NCBI GenBank assembly: GCA_020437805.1
Contig: JAGQVV010000079.1
Coordinates: 1-44,701 of the forward strand
DNA: 44,701 bases
Direction of reading: 5' to 3'
DNA from: Flavobacteriales bacterium
Lineage (GTDB): Bacteria > Bacteroidota > Bacteroidia > Flavobacteriales_F > PHOS-HE28
Part shown: positions 2,405-35,131 of the stretch, in pieces
Numbering within the stretch: position 1 is the stretch's first letter
Layout of the letters: each line of letters begins with the position of its first letter
Notes under the pieces: model-generated
What the model saw: the letters and a program-made list of their open reading frames with translations, nothing else
What the model was told of the DNA's origin: nothing
Databases searched by the model: none
Made by a program: the position numbers and the translations under genes

Positions 2405-2776
2405 ATGAAGAAAGCACAGGGCGCTGCGGCCCGTTTGGTGGATGCCGTTGTTGAGGGCATTCAGGAAGTAAAAGGCAAGGACATCGTTCATTTGGACCTG
2501 CGCGGCGTTCCCAATTCGGTGAGCGAGCATTTCATCATCTGTCACGGCGATTCATCCACACAGGTCGCATCGCTCACGCGGTCGGTGGAAAAGATCGTGG
2601 CGGAACGGACCGGTGAGAAGCCTTGGCATTCGGAAGGTGAGAACAATGGGGAATGGGTGCTGTTGGATTTCGTGAACGTGGTGGTGCACATCTTCCACCG
2701 GGACAAGCGTTCCTATTACGCGCTGGAGGACCTTTGGGCCGATGGCGCACGCAAAAGCTACGAGAACGTGGCGTGA
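2405..2776 (+). CDS. rsfS: Ribosomal silencing factor RsfS (iojap family)
   Basis: A 123-residue protein of the RsfS/YbeB/iojap family. The family core is visible as EHFIICHGDSSTQVASL (about 39-55), EGENNGEWVLLDF and VVVHIFHRDKRSYYALEDLW. RsfS binds L14 on the free 50S subunit and blocks joining with 30S under nutrient limitation. It heads the + strand run with ftsH, which starts 20 bp after its stop; this rsfS-ftsH order is familiar in Bacteroidota. It is divergent from birA, with a -7 box immediately upstream. Confidence 0.95.
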   Translation: MKKAQGAAARLVDAVVEGIQEVKGKDIVHLDLRGVPNSVSEHFIICHGDSSTQVASLTRSVEKIVAERTGEKPWHSEGENNGEWVLLDFVNVVVHIFHRDKRSYYALEDLWADGARKSYENVA

Positions 2777-2796
2777 ACGCATGAACATCTGAGATC

Positions 2797-4803
2797 GTGG
2801 AGAACAACGAGGAACGTAACGAGAAGCCCGGGAAGGAGAAGCCGAAAAGGTCGTTCAACTTCTACTGGATCTATGGCATCATCATCCTGGTGATCCTGTC
2901 CATCAACCTCTTCCAATATGGAGGGGGCATGGTGAAGATCTCCCCGACCGAATACCAGAAGATGCTGGAAGACGGGGATGTGCAACGGATCGTGGTGGTG
3001 AACGACCAGACGGTGAAGGTCTTCATCAAGAAGGACAAGCTGCAGGAGGAACCGCACAAGGACAAGATCAAGGGCTCCCCGATCAGTGGCGACAATGTGG
3101 TAGGCCCGCATTATGCCTTCAACATGGGCACATCGGATGTGATCAAGGACCGCATCGTGAAGGACGCCGAACGGATGAAGGTGCCGTACGAATACGAGAC
3201 CCAGGATAATTGGGGACGCGAGATCCTGAACTGGGTCATCTTCTTCGGCATCATGATCGCCATCTGGATCTTCGTCATGCGACGGATCGGTGGTGGCGGC
3301 GGACCGGGCGGTCAGATCTTCAACATCGGCAAGAGCCGAGCGCAGGTCTTCGAGGGCGGGAAGAGCACCAATGTCACGTTCAACGACGTGGCCGGTCTGG
3401 CAGAAGCGAAAGAGGAACTGCAGGAGATCGTGGACTTCCTGAAGACCCCGAAGAAATACACCGACCTCGGCGCCAAGATCCCGAAAGGAGCATTGCTCGT
3501 GGGCCCTCCGGGCACGGGTAAGACCTTGTTGGCCAAAGCGATCGCGGGCGAAGCCAACGTTCCCTTCTTCTCCCTGAGCGGATCGGACTTCGTGGAGATG
3601 TTCGTAGGCGTGGGAGCAAGTCGCGTCCGCGACCTCTTCAAACAGGCCAAGGAGAAAGCCCCTGCCATCATTTTCATCGACGAGATCGATGCGGTGGGCC
3701 GTGCCCGAGGCCGCGGTGTGAGCATGGGTGCCAACGATGAGCGCGAGAATACACTGAACCAGCTCCTGACCGAGATGGACGGCTTCGGCACCAACAGCGG
3801 TGTGATCCTGATCGGGGCCACCAACCGCGCCGACGTGCTGGACCGCGCCCTGCTCCGGGCGGGTCGATTCGACCGACAGATCTTCGTGGACATGCCCGAC
3901 CTGAACGAGCGCATGGCCATCTTCGAAGTGCACCTGAAGCCATTGAAACTGGACACCAGCAGTGTGGATGTGGAGTTCCTGGCCAAGCAAACGCCGGGCT
4001 TCAGCGGTGCCGACATCGCCAACATATGCAACGAAGCGGCCTTGATCGCCGCGCGGAAGAAGAAGCTGTCCGTGGAGAAGCAGGATTTCCTGGATGCCGT
4101 GGACCGAGTGATCGGAGGCTTGGAGAAGAAGAACAAGATCATCACCAAGGAGGAGAAGAACGCTATCGCCTACCACGAAGCGGGACATGCAACGGTAAGC
4201 TGGCTGGTGGAACACGCCTCGCCCCTGGTGAAAGTGACGATCGTGCCGCGTGGACGCTCCCTGGGTGCCGCTTGGTACCTTCCTGAGGAACGCCATTTGA
4301 CCACCACCGAGCAGATGGAGGATGAGATCTGTGCCGCGCTCGGGGGACGCGCCGCTGAGGATGTGATGTTCGGCAAGGTGAGCACCGGCGCACTGAGCGA
4401 TCTGGAAAAGGTGACCAAGCAGGCCTTCGCCATGGTGACCATGTACGGCCTTAACCCGCGCTTGGGGAACATCAGCTACTACGATAGCTCAGGCCAGAAC
4501 GAATACCAGTTCGGCAAACCGTACAGCGAGCGTACGGCACAAACGATCGATGAGGAAGTGAGCGGTATCGTGGAGGCACAATACCAACGGGCCAAGAGGA
4601 TCCTGACCGAGAACAAGGACAAGTTGACCGCCTTGGCGACCCAACTGCTCGTGAAGGAAGTGATCTTCAAAGAGGACCTGGAGAAGATCTTCGGGGACCG
4701 CCCGTTCGTGAAACCCGAAACCACGTCGACCACCCGGGCAAATGGCAACGGCGGTGCTGCTGAGCACGTATCCGAAGAGGGCACCAACGACGCCACGGTG
4801 TGA
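2797..4803 (+). CDS. ftsH: ATP-dependent zinc metalloprotease FtsH
   Basis: A 668-residue inner-membrane AAA+ protease that degrades misfolded membrane proteins and short-lived regulators. There are two membrane segments (about 24-40 and 144-161) flanking the periplasmic domain. These are followed by Walker A GPPGTGKT (236-243), Walker B FIDEID (293-298), the second region of homology with RAGRFDR, and the zinc site HEAGH (460-464). The probable third ligand is the Asp of GALSDLEKV. The start is GTG at 2797, because no in-frame ATG lies between the rsfS stop and the first membrane helix. The C-terminus is polar and low in complexity, as is common. Confidence 0.97.
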
Positions 4804-8181: not shown

Positions 8182-8853
8182 TCACATCTTGGCCCCGTAC
8201 GCGAGATCGCCCGCGTCACCAAGGCCTGGGACGATGTATGCCTGTGCCGTCATCTCCTCATCGATCGCACCGATCCAGAATCGCGTGCCGGAAGGAAGGT
8301 GTCGCTTGGCATACTCCATACCCTCAGCACTGGCGATCGCCGCCACCACGTGCAAGGCTTTCGGTCTACCCAAGCGCAACAAGGCCTTTTGCACCAACAC
8401 CATGCTGCGGCCCGTGGCCAACATGGGATCGCAGAGCACCACCACGCGTCCCTCCAAGGAAGGACTGCTCAGGTACTCGACCTCGATATCGAAGGCATCC
8501 TCACCTTTCCGGTGCTTGCGATATGCGCTCACGAATGCACTGTCAGCGCGGTCGAAATAGTTCAGCATGCCTTGATGCAAAGGCAACCCCGCACGCAGGA
8601 TCGTGGCAAGAACCGGTTGCTCGCGCAGCGAATGCGTCTCCGCCACGCCCAAGGGGGTGGTCACCTCCGCGGTATCATACTCCATGGTGCGACTGATCTC
8701 CAACGCGACCACTTCACCGATACGCTCCAGGTTCCTGCGGAAACGCATGGGGTCCTTCTGCACTTCGATATCGCGCAATTCCGCGATGAAGTGGCTCACC
8801 ACGCTTCGTTGTTTCACCAGTTCCTGCACCATCGCTCCTATCGCTTGATCCAC
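8182..8853 (-). CDS. upp: Uracil phosphoribosyltransferase
   Basis: A 223-residue salvage enzyme that makes UMP from uracil and PRPP. The PRPP loop VVLCDPMLATGRSM is near residue 140, and the uracil-binding YIVPGLGDAGDLAYG is at the C-terminus. ILRAGLPLHQGM is the other conserved block. Its ATG lies 16 bp inside the end of the FemAB-like gene, so this housekeeping gene is embedded at the tail of the glycan-modification series. UMP supply for UDP-sugars is a possible link, but simple operon packing is equally likely. Confidence 0.95.
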   Translation of the reverse strand: MDQAIGAMVQELVKQRSVVSHFIAELRDIEVQKDPMRFRRNLERIGEVVALEISRTMEYDTAEVTTPLGVAETHSLREQPVLATILRAGLPLHQGMLNYFDRADSAFVSAYRKHRKGEDAFDIEVEYLSSPSLEGRVVVLCDPMLATGRSMVLVQKALLRLGRPKALHVVAAIASAEGMEYAKRHLPSGTRFWIGAIDEEMTAQAYIVPGLGDAGDLAYGAKM

Positions 8854-9749
8854 CGAAGTGGGAGCGGAAGTCGGTTCCGCGTCAGGTGTAAATATACCGA
8901 GGAGTGCGCACCGAATCCCCCATTGAAACGCGCGACGGAGGGTGTGTTGGATCCAGCGAAGTCCAACAGCAGGTCGCTTCCCGCCTTGGACGCGATATGA
9001 TGGTCCAGCAAATGGAACATCGCATGGCGTTCCTGTCCTCGCTCATCGTTAGCGGATTTCAGGAGTATGCTGCGGCCCTCCCACTCCATGAAGCAGACCG
9101 CGGCGATCGGTACTCCTTCCTCGCGCATGGCGAACATGGTGCACTGACCTTGTCGAGATGCTTCCTCCAACAACGCGCTCAGCAGTTCCAAACCCCCATC
9201 CGGTATCCCGCCGAATCGCGCTGCCGTGGTCCTTCGGAAAAGGGTGACGAACTCATCCGCACGCAGATCAGTGACGATATCAGGCGCCGCCACTCCGGCC
9301 TTTCTCAGGTTGCGGCGATGACCTTGTGAATACCCGGCACGAAGCTCCTCTACGGTTCCACTGAGCAGCAAGGTCTGGTTCGTGTTCTCTTCGACCGTTC
9401 CCTCTACAAGCCCAGCTGCCGATATCATGGCATTCAAATGGATATCCCAGAATCGGAAGCGCTTCGGGACCGCTTCGAAAAATGAGCGGCTCAATGCATC
9501 GGAAGGGACCTTCGCGAAGACCCCTTGCTGCTGAACGGCATACGGCTGAAAGAGATAATCGATGCCGAACCTCCTTCGCCATAGCAGGGGCATTATCGCT
9601 CCTTGGTCCTTGTCGATCAGACACTCCCACTCCGGGCAGCACCGATCAAGGACCCAGCTTTGCATGTACCAGATCCGGTCCGCACAGGACGTGTGCAGCC
9701 TATCCCATAGGCCCTTGTCGATCTCGCTATGCCGCAAATGCTCGATCAT
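8838..9749 (-). CDS. FemAB-like GNAT acyltransferase
   Basis: A 303-residue protein of the FemAB/GNAT-fold type. The N-terminal half has the WYMQSWVLDRCCPEW and LFQPYAVQQQGVF pattern seen in Bacteroidota FemAB-like proteins. The C-terminal half has SQGHRRNLRKA followed by LLLDFAGSNTPSVARFNGGFG, the usual end motif of this group. Relatives transfer amino acids from charged tRNA or acyl groups to glycans and peptides. Homologues also occur in polysaccharide loci linked to exosortases. It overlaps the deacetylase (4 bp) and upp (16 bp). Donor and acceptor are unknown; carrier-bound substrates from the neighbouring genes are a plausible inference. Confidence 0.75.
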   Translation of the reverse strand: MIEHLRHSEIDKGLWDRLHTSCADRIWYMQSWVLDRCCPEWECLIDKDQGAIMPLLWRRRFGIDYLFQPYAVQQQGVFAKVPSDALSRSFFEAVPKRFRFWDIHLNAMISAAGLVEGTVEENTNQTLLLSGTVEELRAGYSQGHRRNLRKAGVAAPDIVTDLRADEFVTLFRRTTAARFGGIPDGGLELLSALLEEASRQGQCTMFAMREEGVPIAAVCFMEWEGRSILLKSANDERGQERHAMFHLLDHHIASKAGSDLLLDFAGSNTPSVARFNGGFGAHSSVYLHLTRNRLPLPLRWIKR

Positions 9750-11035
9750 CGGCCGGCCTGTTGTACGACCTTTTCCATCACCTCAGGCCAAGCGCTGAAT
9801 TCTCCGTGCCCGCTCAAATACCGATCGTGCCATACCGAGACGAATGTGCCGTCCACCGACTTCACGGCATCAGCAATTTCCTGGAAGCGCGCCGCCGCTT
9901 GTTCCCGTGGAACACCCATCTGCTCATGCACCGCGCTGTCCATCGCCGCAAAAGGCCAAAGCATAAGGTCCGTTGCCTCATTGCGATCGAGGTCGAACCA
10001 CGGAAAAGGTGTGCATGTTCCTGCACGGAAACCGACGCGATCGGTGAAACCCAATGTGTGATCCTCGGTGAAGCCTTGGTCCGCAAGTGATCGTAACGTA
10101 CTCGGCAGGTCCCAACGCAGGAAATGTTGTCGATTGACCAGTACGCGAGACCCGCACAACACCTCCAGGTCCGTGCGCTCCTTCTCGCAACGACCTATAC
10201 GCTCGCTGGCATGGTAGGACGGGTGCAAACCCACCTCCGCATACTTCGAGACATCCTGCACAAGTGACCGGAACGCTGGATGCGTATGACCCGCAGCATG
10301 ATCGAACCTCCCTTGGCCCCGCATAAGGAAGAAGGCTATGGTACGATCAACGTGGGACCTTGCTCCGGCCAAACGTTCAGGCAGGATCATGTAGGGGTCG
10401 GACCTGGAACCGGAACGCACGGCCCAACGTTGGGCCACGGCTCCCGGACCATTCATGATAAGGTCCTTCACGGAGGCGCCGATCGCACGATGGAAAGGAC
10501 GCCCGATATATTTCAGACCATTGTCGACATCCACGGTGAGCACATGGCGAAAGCAACGCTTCGGCTCAGGAAGCTCAGGAAACCGAGCGCGCATCCTGCG
10601 AGCAAGATCGAGCACCCAGTGATCGACGATCGGAAGATGCTCCACATGATGCTCCACAATGGCAAGCGATGCCGCCGGGACCCGGCCATGGGCATCTCGA
10701 TCCCTGCTGCCTAACTCGTCCGTCAAGGCCAACAGATGGAAGATCGACGCGAACACATCCTGATCGTCACCTACCTGAAAGGTCTTGAAGCCTCGACCCT
10801 CACCTTGGCAATGCACCGGCCCGGTCGGTACACCCATCAACCGGAGCCACCCACTATCAGGTACATGGAAAGCATCGACCATCGGTTCCACGGCATGGAC
10901 CAGCTTGGGACCATCCGCAGCCTGGAACTCCGCCTCGCTGAGGACCCACTCCACGGGCCAGCCGAGCATGCGTGTGAAGACGTGCTCCACTACGTAGCGC
11001 AGACGTGCTGTAGGATGTTCACTATGGACGAGCAT
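9746..11035 (-). CDS. Polysaccharide deacetylase family protein
   Basis: 429 residues. The N-terminal ~130 residues are a separate domain of the DUF7033 type (FTRMLGWPVEWV, DAFHVPDSGWLRLMG). The C-terminal NodB-like part has the metal motif VLTVDVDNGL, the second motif EVGLHPSYHAS and the catalytic-arginine motif GFRAGTC. Enzymes of this group remove N-acetyl groups from surface glycans. The frame is open to 11242, but the extra 69 residues are Cys- and Arg-rich and unlike the family. The ATG at 11035 overlaps the AAC(3)-like gene by 14 bp and matches the normal start (MLVHSEHPTARLRYV). There is no signal peptide, so it would act in the cytoplasm. Confidence 0.83.
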   Translation of the reverse strand: MLVHSEHPTARLRYVVEHVFTRMLGWPVEWVLSEAEFQAADGPKLVHAVEPMVDAFHVPDSGWLRLMGVPTGPVHCQGEGRGFKTFQVGDDQDVFASIFHLLALTDELGSRDRDAHGRVPAASLAIVEHHVEHLPIVDHWVLDLARRMRARFPELPEPKRCFRHVLTVDVDNGLKYIGRPFHRAIGASVKDLIMNGPGAVAQRWAVRSGSRSDPYMILPERLAGARSHVDRTIAFFLMRGQGRFDHAAGHTHPAFRSLVQDVSKYAEVGLHPSYHASERIGRCEKERTDLEVLCGSRVLVNRQHFLRWDLPSTLRSLADQGFTEDHTLGFTDRVGFRAGTCTPFPWFDLDRNEATDLMLWPFAAMDSAVHEQMGVPREQAAARFQEIADAVKSVDGTFVSVWHDRYLSGHGEFSAWPEVMEKVVQQAGR

Positions 11036-11906
11036 GCACCTCGGACAGGAGTTGTTGGGAGCGGGATGGCAGACTGCTGGGCAATATCGTATGGTAGCAG
11101 TCGCGCAACCAGTTCTTCCATGTGAAACGCACGATACTCCGCGCTTCATTCGTTCGGATATCCTCTGCGATGACCTCATGCGCCTTGCGCAGGTCAACGT
11201 GCAGGAACGAAACACGATCGAGATGACCTGATACCATCGCACCCGCTACGGACAACAAGGGGATCAACCTGGAAAGCTCGTTCTCGTATCCCCAACGCTT
11301 CGCATAGATCTTGAACGTGCGTAGTGATGTCAGGCCTTGTGTATCGGTATAGCGGATAACCCGTTCCCGCCAACGGCGATATGGGACCCGCTCCAATTCC
11401 TCCACGTGATGGAAGTAGGACATGGCATGGTTCAGGTGCATATCGATACCGACCAGCGCAAAGCCCTCGCTTCGCAAGAGCGCGAACGGTGTGTCCTCCC
11501 CGAAACTTGTTCCGCTTTCCGCATTCACGAATGCCTGCTGCGCACACCCTGCCACCGCGAAGGAATGAAGGGGGTTTCCGGTCCGCACGAAAGCCGGGTG
11601 CTCCAAGGCGGCTTGGCCCAAGGCACCCGTGATCGTCGGGGATCGGTGGATGTCGAATTCCTCTCCGGAACGCAGATCGTAATTGAACGTGGGGACCACA
11701 ATGGCACCATCCGCCCCAACGCGATCAAGGAACGCATCCAGCAACATGGCGGGTACGCCCTTCACTCCTGACCTACGGAACAACCATGCGACCCTCGTGA
11801 CATCAGCGGTGAGCAGAACGCGGTCACCAGGGGCCACACCGATCCGCTCGGGCCATGAGGCAAGTTCCGATGGTACGCTCAAAGCTGTTTGCGGAGGTTG
11901 ATCCAT
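11022..11906 (-). CDS. AAC(3)-fold N-acyltransferase of the polysaccharide type
   Basis: 294 residues of the aminoglycoside 3-N-acetyltransferase superfamily. Conserved blocks are APGDRVLLTADV, GAIVVPTFNYDL, GNPLHSFAVAG, FGEDTPFALL and NHAMSYFHHVEE. The HP of drug-modifying enzymes is replaced by NP (GNPLHSF). This, together with the context, points to the branch found in O-antigen and capsule clusters that acylates amino sugars, not to drug resistance. The frame extends to 12005, but the ATG at 11906 (MDQPPQTAL) fits the family length and leaves a 28-bp overlap with the GNAT gene; a TTG a few codons further in is also possible. Confidence 0.75.
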   Translation of the reverse strand: MDQPPQTALSVPSELASWPERIGVAPGDRVLLTADVTRVAWLFRRSGVKGVPAMLLDAFLDRVGADGAIVVPTFNYDLRSGEEFDIHRSPTITGALGQAALEHPAFVRTGNPLHSFAVAGCAQQAFVNAESGTSFGEDTPFALLRSEGFALVGIDMHLNHAMSYFHHVEELERVPYRRWRERVIRYTDTQGLTSLRTFKIYAKRWGYENELSRLIPLLSVAGAMVSGHLDRVSFLHVDLRKAHEVIAEDIRTNEARSIVRFTWKNWLRDCYHTILPSSLPSRSQQLLSEVHARP

Positions 11907-12358
11907 TCCACCGTGTAGCCGAAGGACTCGGCGAAGGGCACCGAACTCGGGTGATCCCGCACCACTTGGGTCTCGATGCTCACAACGCCTTTCTCGGTGA
12001 ACCACTCATGCAAGCGCTCAGACATGGCACGGGAAACCCCGCCCCGACGGTGTTCCGCTGTGACGTATAGTTGCGTCCAATGACCAACGCGCTCACCTCC
12101 GAGGTATTCCGGCGCAAGCTTGACCGAACCACAGGTGAAACCAACGACCGTATCCCCATCCAACGCGAGCACCAACCGGCTGAAACGCTCCAACCCGGCC
12201 TTCATGCCATCCAACCAGATCCGGGCCCCGTTGGGCGCCAAGCGTTGCATCATACCGTGCTTGTGCATCACAGCATGCAGGTCGATGAACATCGGAACAA
12301 GCTGCTCCAATCGAGGATCGTCAGGATCCGATGCGACCACGATCCTGATCATGCTCAT
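11879..12358 (-). CDS. GNAT family N-acetyltransferase
   Basis: A 159-residue single-domain GNAT. Motif A is TQLYVTAEHRRGGVSRAM (about 95-112). It follows the acetyl-CoA pyrophosphate loop pattern, except that Ser109 replaces the usual final Gly/Ala. The C-terminal ETQVVRDHPSSVPFAESFGY supplies motif B. The acceptor is unknown. In its setting between an acyl carrier protein and an AAC(3)-like transferase it may acylate an amino sugar or use an acyl carrier as donor. Its ATG overlaps the carrier protein's stop (ATGA), so the two are translationally coupled. Confidence 0.8.
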   Translation of the reverse strand: MSMIRIVVASDPDDPRLEQLVPMFIDLHAVMHKHGMMQRLAPNGARIWLDGMKAGLERFSRLVLALDGDTVVGFTCGSVKLAPEYLGGERVGHWTQLYVTAEHRRGGVSRAMSERLHEWFTEKGVVSIETQVVRDHPSSVPFAESFGYTVEWINLRKQL

Positions 12359-12612
12359 TGGCCATTGAGGAATAGGTCGACCACGCCGCCGACGGTGGTC
12401 GCAGCGGGTCGATCGAAGGCTTTGTCCAGTTCCACTTGTCGACCAACGGCGGTCTCCAACTCGGTGATCAGGTCCACGAATCCCAAGGAATCCAGAACGC
12501 CTGAACGGACCAGGTCCAGATCCGAGGTGACCTCCGCGGCGGTGAGCCCCAATCGTTCAGGACGCTTGCCCAGCTTCTCCACGATCAACCCGAATATTGC
12601 CGACCTATCCAT
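12355..12612 (-). CDS. Stand-alone acyl/peptidyl carrier protein
   Basis: An 85-residue four-helix carrier protein. The phosphopantetheine site is SGVLDSLGFVDL with Ser42, and the third helix region is TTVGGVVDLFL. In sequence and size it resembles DltC and other discrete carriers serving a single adenylating enzyme, rather than fatty-acid AcpP (whose site is usually ADSLD). It overlaps the adenylating-enzyme gene by 8 bp, which makes that enzyme the likely loader. It would be cytoplasmic and require a 4'-phosphopantetheinyl transferase encoded elsewhere. Confidence 0.85.
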   Translation of the reverse strand: MDRSAIFGLIVEKLGKRPERLGLTAAEVTSDLDLVRSGVLDSLGFVDLITELETAVGRQVELDKAFDRPAATTVGGVVDLFLNGQ

Positions 12613-14065
12613 GCTTGGCCATTTCGATCAGTGCCTTGCGATCCACCTTTCCGTGGGCCGTAAGCGGGAAAGTGTCCACGAAAAGGATCCGTTCCGGAAC
12701 CATGTAGGGAGGCAGTTCCGAGCGCAACTCCTCAAGCAACCCTGATGTTTCCAATTCTTGGTCGATAAAAGTAACCAGCCGTGTGGTTCCGGACTCCGCC
12801 ATCGGGAGGGTCAGGATCGAGACATCGGGCAACAACGCTCGCAGCACCGAATCCACTTCGCCGGGTTCCACCCGATGACCCAGGACCTTCACTTGATCAT
12901 CCGAGCGTCCTATGAAGTGCAAGGTCCCTTCCTCCGCTTTGCGAACAAGGTCTCCAGTGCGGTACCAGATCCCGGGTTGGCCATCGATCTTCACGAATGC
13001 CTGCTCCGTGGATCCAGCGTCCTCAAGGTATCCAGAGGACACCTGGGGCCCCGAGAGCAGAAGCTCCCCTTCGTCGCGATCGGCAACGGGTACGACCAAG
13101 GTCCTGTTCGTTCCGATCGGAACGCCCAACGGCACCGTACCAATTCCTCCAGCAGCGCTTCGGACATCGAATGCGGTAATGGCGATGGTCGCCTCCGTTG
13201 GACCGTAGAGGTTCACCACGTTACTGTTCGGGGCCGCTTCGCACCAGGCCTTTGCCACATCCCACGGTAACGCCTCCCCGCAGAAGAAGGAATGCCTCAG
13301 CCTTGGGAATACGCCTGGTCGGAGCGACCTCATTCGCCGAAGCAACGCTGCGTGCGAGGGAACGCTGAACCAAGCGGTGATCTTTTGCCGTTCGACATAT
13401 GATGCAACGGTCAAGGCCCCTTGCTGCTCAGGCACGCAAAGGCAGCCTCCGCTTCCCCAGCACACGAACAGATCGTGCACGCTGAGGTCGAAGGTCAATG
13501 CGAAGATCTGGCTGAATCGCGCTTCCGGGCCATAGTCATATGCCGTCAGAAAGTGGCTCAAATAGGCCGCCACGTTGGCGCGGGAGATGGGCACCCCTTT
13601 CGGCCCTCCAGTACTGCCGCTCGTGAACATGACGTAGGCCTCGTTCCCCGAGCGCACCGCACCATGCTCTTCTTGCAGAGGGGAGTCCGGGACAGTGACA
13701 TGCACTTCATTCCGAAGCAACTCTTCCACCTCCCAACCAGCAATGCAGGCTACCGCTCCCGATCGCTCGATCACTGTGCGCCAGCGGGCCGGTGGGTGAT
13801 CGGGATGCAACGGAACATATGAGCGTCCGGAGCGCAATATTCCAAGGATGGCCGAGTAGGTGATCAGACTTTTTTGTCCATGAACGGCGATCCGAGCGCC
13901 TTCCGGAGTATAGCGCTCGCACCAACCTGCGATCGCTGAGGCATGCTCCTCCAGCTGTGCGTACGTCCACTCTTGCAGACCGATGGAAAGAGCGATACGA
14001 TCGGGATGGGTCCTTACCGAGGAGGCGAAGACGGCATAGGGATCGAACGACCGTGTGGCTTCCAT
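12605..14065 (-). CDS. Amino-acid-type adenylating enzyme (DltA-like AMP ligase)
   Basis: A 486-residue ANL-superfamily enzyme. Motifs: phosphate loop FTSGSTGGPKG (147-157), FDLS (192-195), YGPTE (287-291), YRTGD (368-372), the hinge GRSDDQVKVLGHRVE, and the C-terminal catalytic lysine in GKVDRKAL (Lys473). The Asp of FDLS holds the substrate amino group in NRPS A-domains and DltA. Its presence suggests an amino acid rather than a fatty acid, but the pocket cannot be read with certainty. It probably loads the overlapping carrier protein. A TTG at 14071 is in frame, but the ATG at 14065, two bases after the toroid gene's stop, is the better start. Confidence 0.85.
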   Translation of the reverse strand: MEATRSFDPYAVFASSVRTHPDRIALSIGLQEWTYAQLEEHASAIAGWCERYTPEGARIAVHGQKSLITYSAILGILRSGRSYVPLHPDHPPARWRTVIERSGAVACIAGWEVEELLRNEVHVTVPDSPLQEEHGAVRSGNEAYVMFTSGSTGGPKGVPISRANVAAYLSHFLTAYDYGPEARFSQIFALTFDLSVHDLFVCWGSGGCLCVPEQQGALTVASYVERQKITAWFSVPSHAALLRRMRSLRPGVFPRLRHSFFCGEALPWDVAKAWCEAAPNSNVVNLYGPTEATIAITAFDVRSAAGGIGTVPLGVPIGTNRTLVVPVADRDEGELLLSGPQVSSGYLEDAGSTEQAFVKIDGQPGIWYRTGDLVRKAEEGTLHFIGRSDDQVKVLGHRVEPGEVDSVLRALLPDVSILTLPMAESGTTRLVTFIDQELETSGLLEELRSELPPYMVPERILFVDTFPLTAHGKVDRKALIEMAKHG

Positions 14066-14067
14066 GC

Positions 14068-15240
14068 TCAAGCTTCTTCCACTGCGATCGCGCAGAGCAG
14101 TGCATCAGCGAAGTATTTCGTGGCCCAATTCGGAAAAGCGAACTTCTCATAACGCCCCCAAAGAGGATAGGTGCCCGGCATCGCCCCATGGACATCGGCC
14201 GGTCCGAACGCTGAGAGCTCCTGAACCGTTATCAGCGCGTCGGTCATACGAAGTAGCCCTTCTCGAAAACGCACATCCTTTGTGCGCTCATGCACCCGAG
14301 CCCAAGTGATGGCCAGTTGTGCACAGCCGGTCATGAGCGGGTATTCGCTACCCTTCCAATCCATATCGTAACGACCATGCAGCGTGCCCTCCATGAGAAA
14401 CCGATCCAACAATACTCGTGACACCCTACACCCTGCTGCCTCCAGGTCGCTACGCCCAAGAAGCTTCCCGCACTCAAGAAGCCCGTCGATCGTGTAGGCG
14501 ATGGTATGTGTAATGGGCCGGTCGTTGTGCTTCACGGTATTATCCGCGTTGGCGAACCAGCCGTTCGAGGCCTGTTGCGCGAGCACCCAATCCAGGTTCC
14601 GTGTTGCGGCATCCATCAACGAAGATCCGCCGGTAAGCGCGTGGACCGACAGCAGCGGGGCATCCACATAGGTGTCATATACTCGTGCCACTCCCATGAA
14701 ATTGCTCGATCGCCAGGCACCGTCGCTGTCCTGCCCGGACACGATCCACTCCGCTGCCCGAGCAGCGGATGCCGAATAACGCTCATCTCCCGTTAGTGCG
14801 TGCGCTTCCAACAACCCGCGGATGACCTGTGCGGTGTTGAACACGATGCTCGGCCTGCCCTCTCCTACCCGACCACCTTGCCATCCACCATCGGGCCGCT
14901 GGATGCTCAAGAGCCAATCCGCTGCTCTCATGGCCGCATCCAAGGCACCTTGTTGCTTCAGGAGTTTGCCCCCCGCGATCAATGTGGGAATGGCATAGCC
15001 GGTGGTTTCGGGGTATGAAGCACCCCACCCATGGACCAAATGATAACTGCCCATACCAGCATCAGCGCCGGGTTCTTGTGCACGTATGAGATAAGCCATC
15101 GCAGCGGACAGCGACTCCCTTCGCTCACCTGCCTTCCCCTCCCCGAATGGAGCCAGATGGGCTTTCATCAATGCCCTTGAAGGCGCATCGATGATGCCTT
15201 TCAGAAAGGACCTTCCGTAATCGACCGCAGATCGGATCAC
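14068..15240 (-). CDS. Alpha/alpha-toroid protein (squalene/prenyltransferase-like repeats)
   Basis: 390 residues built from helical repeats with QW-like motifs: SIQRPDGGWQGG, SGQDSDGAWRSS and AQQASNGWFANAD. The region HGWGASYPETTGYAIPTL comes before them. This indicates an (alpha/alpha)6 barrel as in terpene cyclases, prenyltransferase beta subunits and several glycan epimerases and lyases. The cyclase DxDD motif was not recognised, so terpene chemistry is doubtful. A glycan-acting role fits the neighbours. The start is GTG at 15240, overlapping the wecB stop (GTGA). Starting at the upstream in-frame ATG would add 65 residues that shadow wecB. Confidence 0.7.
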   Translation of the reverse strand: MIRSAVDYGRSFLKGIIDAPSRALMKAHLAPFGEGKAGERRESLSAAMAYLIRAQEPGADAGMGSYHLVHGWGASYPETTGYAIPTLIAGGKLLKQQGALDAAMRAADWLLSIQRPDGGWQGGRVGEGRPSIVFNTAQVIRGLLEAHALTGDERYSASAARAAEWIVSGQDSDGAWRSSNFMGVARVYDTYVDAPLLSVHALTGGSSLMDAATRNLDWVLAQQASNGWFANADNTVKHNDRPITHTIAYTIDGLLECGKLLGRSDLEAAGCRVSRVLLDRFLMEGTLHGRYDMDWKGSEYPLMTGCAQLAITWARVHERTKDVRFREGLLRMTDALITVQELSAFGPADVHGAMPGTYPLWGRYEKFAFPNWATKYFADALLCAIAVEEA

Positions 15241-16388
15241 AACGTTTCGATCAATTCGTGGCAGATGCGTTCGGCGGAATGCCCATCCCCGAATATCGCT
15301 GGACAATCCGGCGCACCTGATCCCAGAAAGCGGTCCACCGCAGTGCGGATGCGCTGCGGATCGGCATCGGCCAGGACGGCCTGGCCATGCGCCACAAGCT
15401 CGACCCATTCGGTCTCGGCCCGCAGCACTACGCATGGCCGATCGAAGAAATAGGCCTCCTTTTGTACCCCACCACTGTCGGTGACCACCAGCCGGGAAGC
15501 GGACTCCAACGCGATCATGTCGAAGAAACCCACGGGGTCGATCAAGTGGAACCCGGCCGCGGTCCGCAAGGATCGAAGAAGCTCGGGATCCATCAATTCG
15601 TCCATCATCTTCCGTGTTCTCGGATGCACCGGAACAACGAATGCCAGTCCTGTTTCCGTATGCACCTCCAGCAAGGTCCGGTAAATGGCGTTCAGGCGTT
15701 TCCGGTCGTCCGTGTTATTGTCCCGGTGCACGGTGACCAGAACGAATTCACCGACCCCTATGGACAGGTCCGCGAGGATCTTGGATCGCTCCTTGGCGAG
15801 TTCCCCGAAATACTGGCTGTTATCATACATCACGTCACCTGTCTGCACCACTTTCGGCCGATCGATATCCGCGCGGCCTGGATGGGTCGAGATACCTTCA
15901 TTGGCGAGGTTCCGAACGGCGGTATCCGTAGGACAGAACAGCCATGTGCTGGCATGGTCACAGAGAACGCGGTTCACCTCCTCCGGCATGCGTTTGTTGA
16001 AGGATCGGAGGCCGGCCTCGATATGCGCCACGGGAACATGCAGCTTGGACGCAGCCAAGGCTCCGGCCAAGGTGCTGTTCGTATCCCCATATACGACGAC
16101 CGCATCGTGGGCTTTCCGTTCCAATACCTGCTCGATCCCTTCGGTCATCCGCGCGGTCATAGCGCCATGTGACCCGCTACCGACACCCAGCTGGATATCG
16201 GCCGCAGGGATACCGAGTTCATCGAAGAACACTTGGCTCATATTGGCGTCATAGTGCTGTCCGGTGTGCAACAGGGTCTCTACGATACGACCGGCGAACC
16301 GTGTCCGTATCGCACGGCTCAGCGCCGCAGCCTTGATGATCTGTGGGCGCGCTCCGATGACCGTGAGCAGTCGCAAGGGTTCCGCCAT
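15237..16388 (-). CDS. wecB: UDP-N-acetylglucosamine 2-epimerase (non-hydrolysing)
   Basis: A 383-residue enzyme that converts UDP-GlcNAc to UDP-ManNAc. Family blocks: TVIGARPQIIKAA at the N-terminus, LLHTGQHYD, VVVYGDTNSTLAGALAA, HIEAGLRSFNKRMPEE, TVHRDNNTD, VTDSGGVQKEA and the C-terminal RICHELIE. The ATG at 16388 is 2 bp downstream of the radC stop. The 56-residue upstream extension is a radC shadow. UDP-ManNAc is the donor for WecG/TagA enzymes, one of which is encoded at 18889-19659. No WecC (ManNAcA dehydrogenase) was found here. Confidence 0.95.
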   Translation of the reverse strand: MAEPLRLLTVIGARPQIIKAAALSRAIRTRFAGRIVETLLHTGQHYDANMSQVFFDELGIPAADIQLGVGSGSHGAMTARMTEGIEQVLERKAHDAVVVYGDTNSTLAGALAASKLHVPVAHIEAGLRSFNKRMPEEVNRVLCDHASTWLFCPTDTAVRNLANEGISTHPGRADIDRPKVVQTGDVMYDNSQYFGELAKERSKILADLSIGVGEFVLVTVHRDNNTDDRKRLNAIYRTLLEVHTETGLAFVVPVHPRTRKMMDELMDPELLRSLRTAAGFHLIDPVGFFDMIALESASRLVVTDSGGVQKEAYFFDRPCVVLRAETEWVELVAHGQAVLADADPQRIRTAVDRFLGSGAPDCPAIFGDGHSAERICHELIETL

Positions 16389-21814: not shown

Positions 21815-21987
21815 AAGTACCTGCTGCTTCTTCCGCTACCGGGGAAGACCGGGCAGTCCCATCAACAAACCTGCGTGAATGCCCCAACCCTCGGCAGCGC
21901 CAACTCGTCGAAGGAAAAGGGGCCTTGGTCGCAAAGATGCAACCGTAGCGGCCTGGATAAGGTTCAATGGGCCAAGAACCGCCCCAC

Positions 21988-24729
21988 ATGCGCAACCCAT
22001 CGACCACATCCATCTCCGCTCTGGCCTTCGTTCTTCTAAGCCTGCAAGCGGTGGCCACCGACTATTTCGTTTCACCCTCGGGCAACGACAGCAACAACGG
22101 TACGAGCCAAGGCAGCGCGTGGCGCACGATCGCTCGCGTGCAGCAGCTCCAATACGTGCTTCAGCCCGGTGACCGCATCCTTTTCGAGAGGGGTGCATCA
22201 TATAGCGGGCAACTCGACATCAATTCCTCCGGTTCCGCAAGCCAGCCGATCGTGATCGGCGCCTATGGAAGCGGCAACCTACCGGTCATCTCCGGAGCGA
22301 CAACGGCCTCTACATGGACCCAACACCAAGGCAACATTTGGCGGGCCAGCGTTGCACAACCGGTGAAATATGTCCGCGTGAACGGTGAAGTGATGACCCT
22401 TGCTCGCTACCCCAACACGGGTTGGCTGCGTGTGAACACCTCCACCAACACCCAGTTGAACAGCACTTCGCTCGATCAGGCGAACGGCTATTGGAACGGA
22501 GCACGCTTGGTGGTCCGCAGCACGAACTGGTGCTATGAGAACGCCGAGATCTCCGGCTTCTCCAACGGTACCTTGAGCTTTCCGGCGATCACGTACAACC
22601 CGGGGAATTATGACTGGGGTTTCTTCGTGTGCAACAAGCTGAGCGAATTGGACGCCCCTGGCGAGTGGTTCCACGACGCGAACGCTGGTGTGCTCTACCT
22701 CTGGGCGCCGGGGAATGCCGATCCGAACACCTTGAACGTCCAGGCCTCCGTGCACGAGAACGGGATCAACGTGGGCTGGCAGAAGAGCCATGTCCGCATC
22801 GAGAACCTGCTGTTCCGCGGCCAGCGCTATGCAGGAGTGAACAATGGCGGTGCCAGCCATGTAACGATCACCGGCTGCACGTTCGAATGGTCCAACCACG
22901 CCATCCGGAGCTATGGCAACCACGACAACTACTCCAACAACATCGTCCGGAACACGTTCGCTTCCGGATTGGCACTGATCGACAACAACTCGACGATCGA
23001 GAACAACACCATCACCGATATCGCCCTGATCCCGGGACTTGGAGAGAGTTTCTGGGGCTACTACGGCATGTACGCATTGGGTGAGGACAATGTGATCCGC
23101 AACAACCGCATCACCAATACCGGCAATTCAGGCATGTTCCTCGAAGGCAGCCCCTTGGTGGAGAAGAACGTGATCCGAGCCCCCCTCGCCACGGTGAACG
23201 ATGGAGGAGGGATCTATTGGGACAACTCCGACGGGATGATCATCCAGGACAATATCATTGAGGACCTGGACGGTAACATGGAGAGCGTAGCGATGGACTA
23301 CCATGTGAACTATAAGATCGGCCACGGCATCTACTTCGGGAACGCCGTGATCAACAACACGATCGTCCGGCGCAATACGGTCTCCGGGTGTCGCGGTGCA
23401 GGGATCCATGTGGACCACACGATGGTCTCCAACGGCATCCAGGTGCGCGACAACGTGCTCTATGACAACGATATCCAATTGAGCCTCTCCGACTATTCCA
23501 ATTACAACGGTCCGGGAGCAACGCCACCCTACCATGTCCCGAGCTATAATTCGGTGTATTCAGGGAACACGCTGTACTGCATGGACAAGGACCAGCTGTG
23601 TGTGCAGCAATACCATGTTTACAGCAACAACCTGGTCGATTTCGGCACCTTCACGAACAACCGCCACTTCAACCCGTTCAACGAGCTCACCACCTTCATC
23701 ATCAAGCTTTACAGTGGAACCGTGAAGCATTATTCGCTCGAGCGCTGGCAAGCGGAACGTGGTGAGGAGACCGGCAGCACCCGCAGCCCGCATCGGCAGA
23801 ACAGCCATGAGGTGACCGGGCTGCTGAGCCCGAACCTCGTTTCGAACAGCACTTTCGACTACAACACCAACGGGTGGAGCGGCTGGCCGACCCAAGGGCA
23901 GATCCTGCGGGACAACACGATGCTCGACAACGGGGCCGCCAAGATCGTTTACGGGCAGAACAGTGGTTCGCCGGAATTCTACTTGCGCACCGATGCTACC
24001 ACCAACGTGCAGAACGGACAGTGGTACGAGATGCGCTTCAGCATGCAGAGCAACATGCACGGCGTGGTCCGCGCGGAGTTCAAAGGACAAAGCCAGGCCG
24101 CTGGCCCCAATGCGATCTTTTCCAAGAGCATTCCGTTCGACGCTCAACGCAGGGACATCTCGTTGGTGTTCCAAAGCACGCTCTCCGAGCCGGGCCTCTT
24201 CATCTTCGCGAACAATTTCAACGAAAGCACCTACTGGCTGGACAACGTGGAACTGTACCGCGTGACCGTGGACCCCGTGGACCCCTACACCAGGCACATT
24301 CTCCTCACGAACGAATCGAACGCCCCTGTGGATGTACCCTTGGTCGGTTGCTGGAGGGATGTCCAAGGTGCCTTGCACACGGTTTCGATACCGCTACCGG
24401 CCTATGGTTCCGTGGTATTGGCGAAAGAGGACGACGACCTGTGCGGGTTGACCACCGGCCAGGAAGAAGAAGATGGACCTATGGCCTCGAACGGTCCTTT
24501 GCCCTTCCCGAACCCTGTGGCCTCCGGGGCACCGTTGTTCCTGACCAGGGCTGTGGAAGCCGTCACGGAAATGGAGATCATGGATAGCGCCGGTCGGAGC
24601 ATCCAACGCGCGCGAATGGCGGGAGGTGCGACTGAACTACCGATCGGTGAACGTCTTCCCAGTGGGCACTACTTCATCCTCCTGCGCACCAATGGCTCGG
24701 TGGACCGCCATCGCGTGGTGGTGCAATAA
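21988..24729 (+). CDS. Secreted right-handed beta-helix protein with T9SS-type tail
   Basis: 913 residues. A signal peptide (TSISALAFVLLSLQAVAT) is followed by TDYFVSPSGNDSNNGTSQGS, typical of beta-helix polysaccharide lyases and hydrolases. About 500 residues of beta-helix coils with N-I/V-rich turns come next (NNIVRNTF, NNTITDI, NNRITNTGNSG). A jelly-roll-like region (about 625-760, STFDYNTNGWSGW to TYWLDNVELYRV) resembles CBM4/9-type modules. The C-terminus (LPFPNPVASG to SGHYFILLRTNGS, then HRVVV) resembles a type A sorting domain. It is the only + strand gene inside the polysaccharide locus. Start 21988 is preferred over 21967. It may be a lyase or hydrolase for the locus's own polymer. 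Confidence 0.85.
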   Translation: MRNPSTTSISALAFVLLSLQAVATDYFVSPSGNDSNNGTSQGSAWRTIARVQQLQYVLQPGDRILFERGASYSGQLDINSSGSASQPIVIGAYGSGNLPVISGATTASTWTQHQGNIWRASVAQPVKYVRVNGEVMTLARYPNTGWLRVNTSTNTQLNSTSLDQANGYWNGARLVVRSTNWCYENAEISGFSNGTLSFPAITYNPGNYDWGFFVCNKLSELDAPGEWFHDANAGVLYLWAPGNADPNTLNVQASVHENGINVGWQKSHVRIENLLFRGQRYAGVNNGGASHVTITGCTFEWSNHAIRSYGNHDNYSNNIVRNTFASGLALIDNNSTIENNTITDIALIPGLGESFWGYYGMYALGEDNVIRNNRITNTGNSGMFLEGSPLVEKNVIRAPLATVNDGGGIYWDNSDGMIIQDNIIEDLDGNMESVAMDYHVNYKIGHGIYFGNAVINNTIVRRNTVSGCRGAGIHVDHTMVSNGIQVRDNVLYDNDIQLSLSDYSNYNGPGATPPYHVPSYNSVYSGNTLYCMDKDQLCVQQYHVYSNNLVDFGTFTNNRHFNPFNELTTFIIKLYSGTVKHYSLERWQAERGEETGSTRSPHRQNSHEVTGLLSPNLVSNSTFDYNTNGWSGWPTQGQILRDNTMLDNGAAKIVYGQNSGSPEFYLRTDATTNVQNGQWYEMRFSMQSNMHGVVRAEFKGQSQAAGPNAIFSKSIPFDAQRRDISLVFQSTLSEPGLFIFANNFNESTYWLDNVELYRVTVDPVDPYTRHILLTNESNAPVDVPLVGCWRDVQGALHTVSIPLPAYGSVVLAKEDDDLCGLTTGQEEEDGPMASNGPLPFPNPVASGAPLFLTRAVEAVTEMEIMDSAGRSIQRARMAGGATELPIGERLPSGHYFILLRTNGSVDRHRVVVQ

Positions 24730-26072: not shown

Positions 26073-27071
26073 TCAAGTCAAGCCCAAGCGACGCTGCAAT
26101 TTGGAGAGGAACGGGGTGATCGCTTCGTCCACGGCGTCGGGCAGTAGGCCCTTGAGCGTGCTCTTGAACCTACGGAACAACGGAGGCCTGACATAGGCGT
26201 TGAAGTAGGCGAGGTTCCTTTCGGTATCCACGGTGATCTCCACTGGGTGTTCCAAGGGCCATTCCGCACTGTGCAAATGCTCCTGGTTCCGCGGATCACG
26301 GCGGTCCACCGAATGCGTGGCATCTTCTCCGAACCCGACGTTCCGGCAGAGATTCACGTTCGGGATGATATTGACCGCTCCCGCCTTCATCTTGGCATAG
26401 TCGAACTGGTAATCCCAAGCGCCAGCGATACGACCATCCCACGTTGCTTCGAGCAAGTGAAGGGCTTCCTTCCGCTCCCCGGAACTCAAGAACCAGGGAT
26501 CGAAACGTTTGGAATCCCGGACCTCCGGCCAATCCTTCATGTCCACATCGAAGCGCTCCCAAGACCTGCGCCAACCGGCCCAACCGGAATACGCCCCATA
26601 GCCATGCGCCATGAACCAGTATCCACGCGGATCCTTGACCTCCCCGCCCGTGGCGAGGTTGTTGCCGATGATCGCCCAGATCCGCTCGTCATCCCGGTAG
26701 CGTTCCAACAGCTCCTGCGCGAAGCGGAAGAAACTTTGGTCAGGTACGATATCGTCCTCCAGGACAATGCCTTCGGCTTCCTGCGAGAAGAACCAATCCA
26801 TGTTCTCCACCATCCCATATTTGGTACCCTTGTTCTTTTCATGGAACAAGGTGTGCACCTCGCAAGGCCAATCAACGAGTTCGACCAAGGTGCGGACGCG
26901 GTCGGTCCGTTCCTTTTCGGCCTCGTTACGCGGTCCATCGCATGCGAAATAGAGGCGCGGGGGTCGGGCCGAACGCACCGCTTCCATGACAAGACGTGCC
27001 GTGTCATACCGTTTGAAGGCGGTGATCATCACGGCCGTGTGGTTCGGAGATGCGGGTATGGTCGAGTTCAT
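26073..27071 (-). CDS. GT-A-type glycosyltransferase
   Basis: A 332-residue protein. It begins TAVMITAFKRYDTARLVME, the nucleotide-sugar binding strand-loop of GT-A glycosyltransferases. GIVLEDDIVPDQSFF provides the metal-binding acidic cluster. GYGAYSGWAGWRRSWERFD and the W-rich middle resemble the GNT-I/GT13-like branch (Pfam nucleotide-diphospho-sugar transferases) often found in bacterial capsule loci. It would act at the cytoplasmic membrane. It sits between wzx and wzy with short gaps on each side. Confidence 0.82.
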   Translation of the reverse strand: MNSTIPASPNHTAVMITAFKRYDTARLVMEAVRSARPPRLYFACDGPRNEAEKERTDRVRTLVELVDWPCEVHTLFHEKNKGTKYGMVENMDWFFSQEAEGIVLEDDIVPDQSFFRFAQELLERYRDDERIWAIIGNNLATGGEVKDPRGYWFMAHGYGAYSGWAGWRRSWERFDVDMKDWPEVRDSKRFDPWFLSSGERKEALHLLEATWDGRIAGAWDYQFDYAKMKAGAVNIIPNVNLCRNVGFGEDATHSVDRRDPRNQEHLHSAEWPLEHPVEITVDTERNLAYFNAYVRPPLFRRFKSTLKGLLPDAVDEAITPFLSKLQRRLGLT

Positions 27072-34135: not shown

Positions 34136-35128
34136 ATGAAGAACTTCAAAGGCCACTTACCCCTGCTGCTCCCGGTCGCCCTTTTCCTCGGCTCGTGTGC
34201 CACCATGCAACCGACCGCCGAGGTCCGGGATGACGTCTATTTCCTTCCTCCCTACGGACCGGAACTCGCATCCACAGGGCCGGCCGTACCGCTGGATGGA
34301 CCGGAACCCGGAGGGGATGACTACTACGACCCCGGTACCGCGGAGTCCTACGGATCGGACCGTAACTTCTATGACCTCACCTACAACGACCCCTACTATT
34401 ACAACTACGACCGATTCGGGTTCGGCACGGGCTTGGGCTACAGCACCGGATACGGCTGGGGGCCCAATGGCATGATGATCGGTCTGGGCTATGGCTCCGG
34501 TGTGTACAGCGGATGGTCCTATGGCCTGTACGGAGGTAGTGCTTTCCCGTATGGCAACATCCGATGGAACGCCACTTACGGTTACAACAACTGTTTCGGC
34601 GGCCCCTCACCTTGGTGCAACCCATGCAATGGATGGGGAGGCGGATTCGGATACGGGTATGGTTATGGCAACTACTATGGACCATATGGGAACTGCCTCT
34701 CGTGCTACTCGCCGGTGATCATCGGGGCTGGAAGCAATGTGGTGGTAGGACACCGCCCTTCGATGGGTGCTGGAGGTGGCTCCCGAACCGACCCGGGTGC
34801 GAGCCGCTTGATCGCTCGTGATCCTGTTCGACTGAATACCACTGTTTCCGATCCGGGACGTTTGGTCGGTACACGACCGACCACGCGCACAGGTGGGCTG
34901 CAACCCGCGCGGGAGATCCGCAGCACCGGGACCCAACGACAAGGGACCTATTCCCCGAGCGACGGCGGAAGCCGCACTCGAGGTACAAGGTCTGTGGAGC
35001 GCAGCACTCCTCGCATGGGTGGCGGTGGTGGTGGTGAAATACGATCCACGAGCCCTTCTCGCAGTACTGGAGGAGGCAGCACCGGCGGTGGTGGTGGTGG
35101 CGTGCGGACCAGCCCTAACCGTCGCTGA
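34136..35128 (+). CDS. Gly/Tyr-rich lipoprotein, unknown function
   Basis: 330 residues. A lipoprotein signal (PLLLPVALFLGSC, Cys about 21) is followed by an acidic, Tyr-rich stretch (DDYYDPG, DPYYYNYDRFG). Next is a long Gly/Tyr/Asn/Ser region of short GYGYGYGNYYGPYGN-type repeats. The C-terminal third is basic and Ser/Arg/Gly-rich with runs of glycine (GGGGGGE, GGGGGGV). Disordered or amyloid-like surface material is a possible reading. It lies 3 bp before the FadL-like gene and is likely co-transcribed. No family name is supported. Confidence 0.75.
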   Translation: MKNFKGHLPLLLPVALFLGSCATMQPTAEVRDDVYFLPPYGPELASTGPAVPLDGPEPGGDDYYDPGTAESYGSDRNFYDLTYNDPYYYNYDRFGFGTGLGYSTGYGWGPNGMMIGLGYGSGVYSGWSYGLYGGSAFPYGNIRWNATYGYNNCFGGPSPWCNPCNGWGGGFGYGYGYGNYYGPYGNCLSCYSPVIIGAGSNVVVGHRPSMGAGGGSRTDPGASRLIARDPVRLNTTVSDPGRLVGTRPTTRTGGLQPAREIRSTGTQRQGTYSPSDGGSRTRGTRSVERSTPRMGGGGGGEIRSTSPSRSTGGGSTGGGGGGVRTSPNRR

Positions 35129-35131
35129 CCC

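Follow-up and report, generated by a model that had tools for sequence, protein, structure and literature searches.

We found a run of eight genes in an uncultured flavobacterium in which three genes related to those for the linking sugar of the type IX secretion system (T9SS) enclose five genes of a different character, among them those for an amino-acid adenylating enzyme and a carrier protein. The run lies in a stretch of 44,701 nucleotides on one contig (JAGQVV010000079.1, assembly GCA_020437805.1, Flavobacteriales bacterium), which we call the window and whose genome is 3.21 Mb and 85.6% complete. The three genes, which encode an epimerase, a deacetylase and a FemAB-like protein, form a near-universal core of the genus; the remaining five make up an accessory module that has been gained or lost there. 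Taken as a whole, the locus could well be a Wbp/Vim-type T9SS linking-sugar locus into which a thiol-template module, comprising adenylation and carrier functions, has been inserted; we judge the chances of this to be about even.

An original prediction, made from the letters of the window, had described eight consecutive, mostly overlapping genes as a single cassette for glycan modification. The genes are present as described, on the minus strand at 8838-16388, and their families were checked by hidden Markov model (HMM) searches. However, they divide into the trio and the module, and the prediction had made no connection to the T9SS. In the order of transcription, the genes are:

15237..16388, minus: WbpI-type UDP-2,3-diacetamido-2,3-dideoxyglucuronate 2-epimerase (core; predicted from solved relatives and specificity residues; originally called wecB)
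14068..15240, minus: (alpha/alpha) toroid protein (accessory; AlphaFold model folded like sugar 2-epimerases and GH88 uronyl hydrolases)
12605..14065, minus: discrete amino-acid adenylating enzyme (accessory; TIGR01733 and pocket DLHSFCLIAK)
12355..12612, minus: discrete carrier protein (accessory; PF00550, with conserved phosphopantetheine Ser42 in LDSL)
11879..12358, minus: GNAT acyltransferase (accessory; PF00583, 39.1 bits, and a fixed place in the block)
11022..11906, minus: AAC(3)-fold N-acyltransferase (accessory; PF02522, 69.8 bits, and conserved His and Glu)
9746..11035, minus: VimE-like sugar deacetylase, DUF7033/CE4-like (core; NF053580, 130.7 bits)
8838..9749, minus: VimA-like FemAB-type aminoacyltransferase (core; fold model and HMM)

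All eight are real open reading frames (ORFs) and follow one another nearly without gaps. Neighboring genes overlap by 4-28 bp, the sole exception being the junction ahead of the adenylating enzyme, where use of its ATG start leaves a gap of 2 bp. Orthologues were used to correct the starts of the toroid gene (15240, 390 aa), the AAC(3)-fold gene (11906) and the deacetylase gene (11035). A longer toroid ORF starting at 15435 was rejected as spurious, the orthologues beginning at the wecB stop. Given that radC lies 2 bp upstream of the run and that upp overlaps its downstream end by 16 bp, the eight genes are part of a longer co-directional run. A promoter and terminator search gave no signal beyond chance.

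A conserved trio with a variable insertion

We compared the locus among 45 genomes of one genus, namely the window's own and 44 others, and read 26 same-genus loci in detail. Relatives that carry names are Flavobacteriales metagenome-assembled genomes such as UBA7690 and Go_SlAct_bin_91. The flanks are constant in these 26 loci (HAD, upp, radC, rpsT, WcaJ and WecG), the trio is conserved in position in all of them, and a deacetylase orthologue occurs in 44 of the 45 genomes. The variable stretch is the one between epimerase and deacetylase. Relatives with 38-77% protein identity have the genes in the same order and at the same place on the chromosome, so the eight-gene arrangement is not due to chance.

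The toroid gene and the block encoding adenylating enzyme, carrier, GNAT and AAC(3)-fold protein are linked at the locus in 18 of the 45 genomes, a count that includes four (G016, G019, G026 and G036) in which contig breaks cut the block or separate it from the deacetylase, and for which the block genes were not all read in each genome. Seven genomes (G005, G006, G009, G012, G015, G028 and G041) have the toroid at the locus and the four-gene block elsewhere; the relocated block is intact in six of them and cut by a contig end in the remaining one (L307). In G027 and G031, the locus reads epimerase, toroid, AAC(3), deacetylase, and in G037 the toroid is 8.5 kb away from the deacetylase. Neither the toroid nor a close adenylating orthologue was detected in the other 17 genomes. 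Within the block, the GNAT gene always stands between those for the carrier and the AAC(3)-fold protein.

The toroid is found wherever the adenylating orthologue is, the seven genomes with a relocated block included. A strict co-occurrence of the two was rejected, since the toroid occurs without the adenylating enzyme in G027, G031 and G037. A tree built from flanking proteins requires at least five changes in module presence, three of them forced by supported branches. The check proposed with the original prediction was a search of gene neighborhoods, in which homologues scattered without linkage would have refuted it; homologues were not so scattered, and the outcome favors the prediction on this point. 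Outside the genus, the combination of trio and module was found in none of the 40 loci read from the phylum.

One genome, G042, is the sole member of the genus without a detectable VimE-like deacetylase, which may reflect an assembly gap. Its adenylating enzyme is divergent, with the pocket DLMSLCVIFK.

The trio resembles linking-sugar genes

The epimerase scores above the TIGR00236 cut-off, and it had been named wecB in the original prediction. Its closest solved relatives are UDP-2,3-diacetamido-2,3-dideoxyglucuronate 2-epimerases (8sxv etc.), at 360 bits, compared with 123 bits for E. coli WecB. The specificity of the former enzymes has been ascribed to Trp307, which takes the place of a conserved Arg, together with Ala18 and Tyr96 (PMC10622841). 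Trp328, Ala20 and Tyr100 of the window epimerase correspond to these residues, and the Trp is kept in 26 of 26 relatives from the genus. Judged by homology, the enzyme is thus a WbpI-type UDP-2,3-diacetamido-glucuronate 2-epimerase rather than WecB.

The deacetylase matches the NCBIfam VimE equivalog NF053580 over most of the model at 130.7 bits, with the cut-off at 440, and by this measure is a VimE relative that belongs to no named equivalog. In three genomes of one family whose VimE does pass the cut-off (L128, L328 and L329), it scores 638-676 bits, and the gene adjoining vimE is matched by the FemAB family HMM at 66-77 bits. In one of these three, FemAB, VimE and epimerase genes are consecutive. 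In Porphyromonas gingivalis and Tannerella forsythia, VimE and VimA have been proposed to finish the linking sugar by exchanging an acetyl group for Ser or Gly (PMC7468200). The window locus resembles this pathway in that an epimerase, a VimE-type deacetylase and a VimA/FemAB-type aminoacyltransferase are adjacent, a likeness judged through the VimE genomes of the one family and that paper rather than through the P. gingivalis and T. forsythia genes themselves.

A further resemblance is the presence of Wbp enzymes and the PorU sortase in the window's own genome or its relatives. The own genome contains wbpE and wbpD, followed by a contig end. In relatives there is a complete operon of WbpE, UGD, SDR, WbpD, WbpB and WbpA genes, named by their relatives of solved structure (WbpE, 329 bits; WbpD, 245 bits to 3mqg; WbpB, 190 bits to 3q2i, which we take to be WlbA). 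PorU is present in the own genome, where NF033707 scores 1237 bits against a cut-off of 420.

The trio, and the module with it, might instead make a di-N-acyl mannuronic acid-type part of an ordinary O-antigen or exopolysaccharide, its occurrence with the T9SS being coincidental. ManNAc3NAcA is indeed a known O-antigen sugar (PMC10622841), and VimE-like genes occur in genomes without detected PorU. However, a deacetylase and a FemAB aminoacyltransferase adjoining the epimerase is the Vim arrangement, and nearly every genome of this T9SS-bearing genus has the trio, whereas O-antigen genes are variable. Moreover, eight deacetylase-FemAB pairs were read outside the genus, and the genome of each is PorU-positive, against a background of 257 of 395; this association is suggestive only. 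Overall, we regard the O-antigen explanation as improbable. As a marker for the T9SS, the VimE-like gene was rejected because strong matches occur in genomes without detected PorU (G174, G178, G226, G242, G278 and G348).

The model of the FemAB-like protein (pLDDT 93) has as its closest folds the aminoacyl-tRNA-dependent enzymes Sba18 and Sbb17, FemX and FemA. The best structural matches, FemX, Sba18 and Sbb17, share only 11-16% identity with it, and Sba18 and Sbb17 act on streptothrisamine. In the original prediction, an amino acid or acyl group is passed from the carrier to an amino sugar. A set of adenylating enzyme, carrier and acyltransferases does exist, but for the FemAB-like protein the most likely source of the amino acid is tRNA, which its fold relatives use, because its gene also occurs where the carrier is absent. 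The same two observations make it unlikely that the adenylating enzyme and carrier supply this protein in place of aminoacyl-tRNA, although both activities are encoded in one gene run.

The accessory module

The adenylating enzyme barely exceeds the TIGR01733 cut-off (318.3 vs 317.4 bits). We mapped its pocket by hand onto GrsA. The pocket DLHSFCLIAK is invariant in 10 linked orthologues with 46-62% identity to the window protein; 7 unlinked orthologues have DLHSACLIAK, and stand-alone enzymes of other phyla have near variants. Asp193, which corresponds to GrsA Asp235 in the manual alignment, is invariant in all of the linked and unlinked orthologues. Since this is the Asp that binds the alpha-amino group, the substrate is likely an amino acid. 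We could not assign a particular amino acid from DLHSFCLIAK, which resembles DltA and small-residue codes without a certain match. Our guess, by analogy, would be a small residue, because the pocket presumably resembles that of DltA and the best solved relative by sequence is LgrA.

The carrier scores over the PF00550 cut-off, and its Ser42 is invariant in 10 orthologues. That an amino-acid-type adenylating enzyme, a carrier and acyltransferases stand beside a sugar deacetylase was part of the original prediction and is supported, these genes being kept together in linkage.

The AAC(3)-fold enzyme has conserved His and Glu residues (e.g., HHVEE), which we take to be the active-site stretch of the family. 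It was rejected as an antibiotic resistance gene, given that NF033082 scores 40.5 bits against a cut-off of 270; only the fold is shared.

The toroid model (pLDDT 92) resembles cellobiose 2-epimerase and unsaturated (GH88) glucuronyl hydrolase with fold Z scores of ~32. The structure search establishes the fold only, returning epimerases, GH88 enzymes and terpene cyclases. Because G027 and G031 carry both the toroid and the AAC(3)-fold gene without the adenylating enzyme, these two proteins appear to be a unit able to use another donor. The two genomes also suggest that adenylating enzyme, carrier and GNAT alter the group that is transferred.

Could the adenylation-carrier block make a stand-alone secondary metabolite in the manner of a small nonribosomal peptide synthetase (NRPS), unrelated to glycans? 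Such adenylation domains are common in NRPS clusters, but the block has no condensation, reductase or thioesterase domain, its gene order is kept across the genus and it is tied to the toroid. We therefore give this idea very little credence.

Related genes also occur in other settings. In an Acidobacteria gp2 locus (L136:9887-18501), one run contains an adenylating enzyme, a carrier, an epimerase of the same family, a GFO/IDH-type oxidoreductase and an aminotransferase, as well as a weak deacetylase match; it is possibly a convergent or independent carrier-dependent diamino-uronic acid locus. In Mucispirillum schaedleri (L162:6127-9197), an AAC(3)-fold domain forms a fusion with DUF4910/DUF2172 and a winged helix; a carrier protein and an adenylating enzyme whose pocket is DLHSSCLIAK are encoded nearby. 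A toroid homologue in another genome (L302:7314-10718, G397) is fused to a radical SAM/SPASM protein in an ORF of 1134 aa, beside very long ORFs.

Proposed pathway

For the core, the chemistry that we propose is supported by homology. Wbp enzymes encoded elsewhere would make UDP-GlcNAc3NAcA, which the WbpI-type epimerase would convert to UDP-ManNAc3NAcA. The VimE-like enzyme would then strip one N-acetyl group, and the VimA/FemAB-like enzyme would add an amino acid from tRNA to the freed amine. The resulting aminoacyl sugar would be the nucleophile with which the PorU sortase joins the C-termini of cargo proteins to the sugar.

For the accessory module, we infer the following steps. The adenylating enzyme would activate a small alpha-amino acid and load it onto the carrier, perhaps much as in Dlt or NRPS loading, to which we liken the module's working. 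The GNAT may N-acylate the carrier-bound amino acid, and the AAC(3)-fold enzyme would move the (N-acyl)aminoacyl group from the carrier onto an amine of that sugar or glycan. The toroid may reshape the uronic-acid acceptor. N-acetylated amino acids borne by amino sugars are known O-antigen substituents, and the position of the GNAT gene between those for carrier and AAC(3)-fold enzyme fits with this. What our comparison establishes is the gene content, the homologies, the epimerase specificity residues, the linkage and co-occurrence of the genes, and the presence of T9SS and Wbp genes; the identity of the product as the T9SS linker, the kind of amino acid loaded and the position of the acceptor amine are inferences. 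A bolder idea, which we hold to be less likely than not, is that the carrier-bound, NRPS-like route extends the T9SS linking sugar by an aminoacyl or N-acylaminoacyl group. PorU would then attach proteins to a group made partly by the adenylation-carrier-AAC(3) module and not by a VimA-type transferase alone.

Several observations weigh against a linking-sugar locus with an inserted module. The deacetylase is far under the VimE equivalog cut-off, and VimE-like genes without an adjacent FemAB gene are found also in genomes without detected PorU. In many species the trio functions in the absence of the module, and toroid and AAC(3) genes occur without the adenylating enzyme in the two genomes noted above. 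Finally, the four-gene block is unlinked in seven genomes, and where close relatives of the block occur elsewhere they do not adjoin vim genes, so the acceptor could be another sugar.

Accordingly, the module may decorate a different amino sugar, of a surface polysaccharide or capsule, comparable to the N-acylated amino sugars known from O-antigens, and merely stand beside the trio in a polysaccharide supercluster with no role in T9SS anchoring. In addition to the seven unlinked blocks, the Wzx, Wzy, Wzc and glycosyltransferase genes that adjoin the locus favor such a role, as do relatives of the adenylating enzyme in other glycan-type loci (Acidobacteria and Mucispirillum) and relatives of the toroid that adjoin glycosyltransferases elsewhere. 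By contrast, 18 genomes have the module placed precisely between two genes of the trio, the ORFs overlapping, and the toroid remains within the trio when the other module genes move. We consider this role rather unlikely, though it is the alternative that deserves most attention.

If the linking-sugar reading with its inserted module is true, the locus would represent a novel chemistry for making the anchor of surface proteins in an uncultured flavobacterium. It would provide a concrete, testable gene set with which a surface anchor sugar is aminoacylated in a carrier-dependent way in an environmental lineage, for which natural relatives with the module, with a split module and without it are available for comparison.

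Relationship to known systems

The locus differs from the Wbp/Vim pathway of P. gingivalis and T. forsythia (PMC7468200) in that its deacetylase is below the VimE equivalog cut-off and five extra genes lie between epimerase and deacetylase; the description of that pathway includes no comparable module. The T9SS cargo-linking sugars given in the papers cited here are those of three oral species only, and the trio suggests that Wbp/Vim-like genes reach well beyond such species. A 2025 study of Prevotella intermedia states that several linking-sugar pathways may exist across Bacteroidota and calls the biosynthesis behind the transfer of alanine to a deoxyhexose unknown (PMC11969387). In the open-licence literature, we found no adenylation/carrier module for T9SS glycosylation or O-antigen aminoacylation.

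The original prediction that the locus copies neither the Dlt nor the exosortase system agrees with our scores. A discrete adenylating enzyme and a discrete carrier are shared with Dlt. However, the DltA model (270.7 bits, cut-off 559.85) and the DltC model (21.3 bits, cut-off 52.35) both fall short, and the acyltransferases have GNAT and AAC(3) folds. No DltB or MBOAT protein was found by Pfam among the eight genes, to which this search was confined. Acyl ligase, FemAB-like and deacetylase genes also occur together among the accessory genes of exosortase A (PEP-CTERM), and the relation of VimA to pep-cterm_femAB has been pointed out (PMC7468200). Here, however, the ligase is below the TIGR03098 cut-off (183.7 against 592.35 bits), and the sortase is PorU of the T9SS.

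Vibrio cholerae O1 has a carrier-dependent N-acylation of the RfbK/RfbL type, with a ligase, a carrier and an acyltransferase in an O-antigen locus. That system, which the module resembles in the kinds of gene present, attaches a hydroxy acid (tetronate), whereas the pocket here keeps the amino-acid Asp. The pocket variants indicate a family of stand-alone adenylating enzymes (DLHSxCLIAK) in several phyla.

Other features of the window

The surroundings of the locus include WcaJ, WecG/TagA, GT4, Wzy, Wzx, Wzc-like and Wza-like genes. Two proteins of the window have T9SS type A sorting domains, and one of the two is a likely cargo:

21967..24729, plus: beta-helix protein with T9SS type A sorting domain (TIGR04183, 24.1 bits, cut-off 23)

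Three ORFs of the window are without a Pfam match (26073-27071, minus; 34136-36637, plus; 2758-4296, minus). The first is placed between the Wzy and Wzx genes. The stretch 35132-36637 has a very weak PorV/PorQ-like match only (10.9 bits). Elsewhere in the genus, large NRPS-like ORFs (~1300 and ~2200 aa) with adenylation domains occur in nearly all genomes (e.g., G000:C3:1025-10427).

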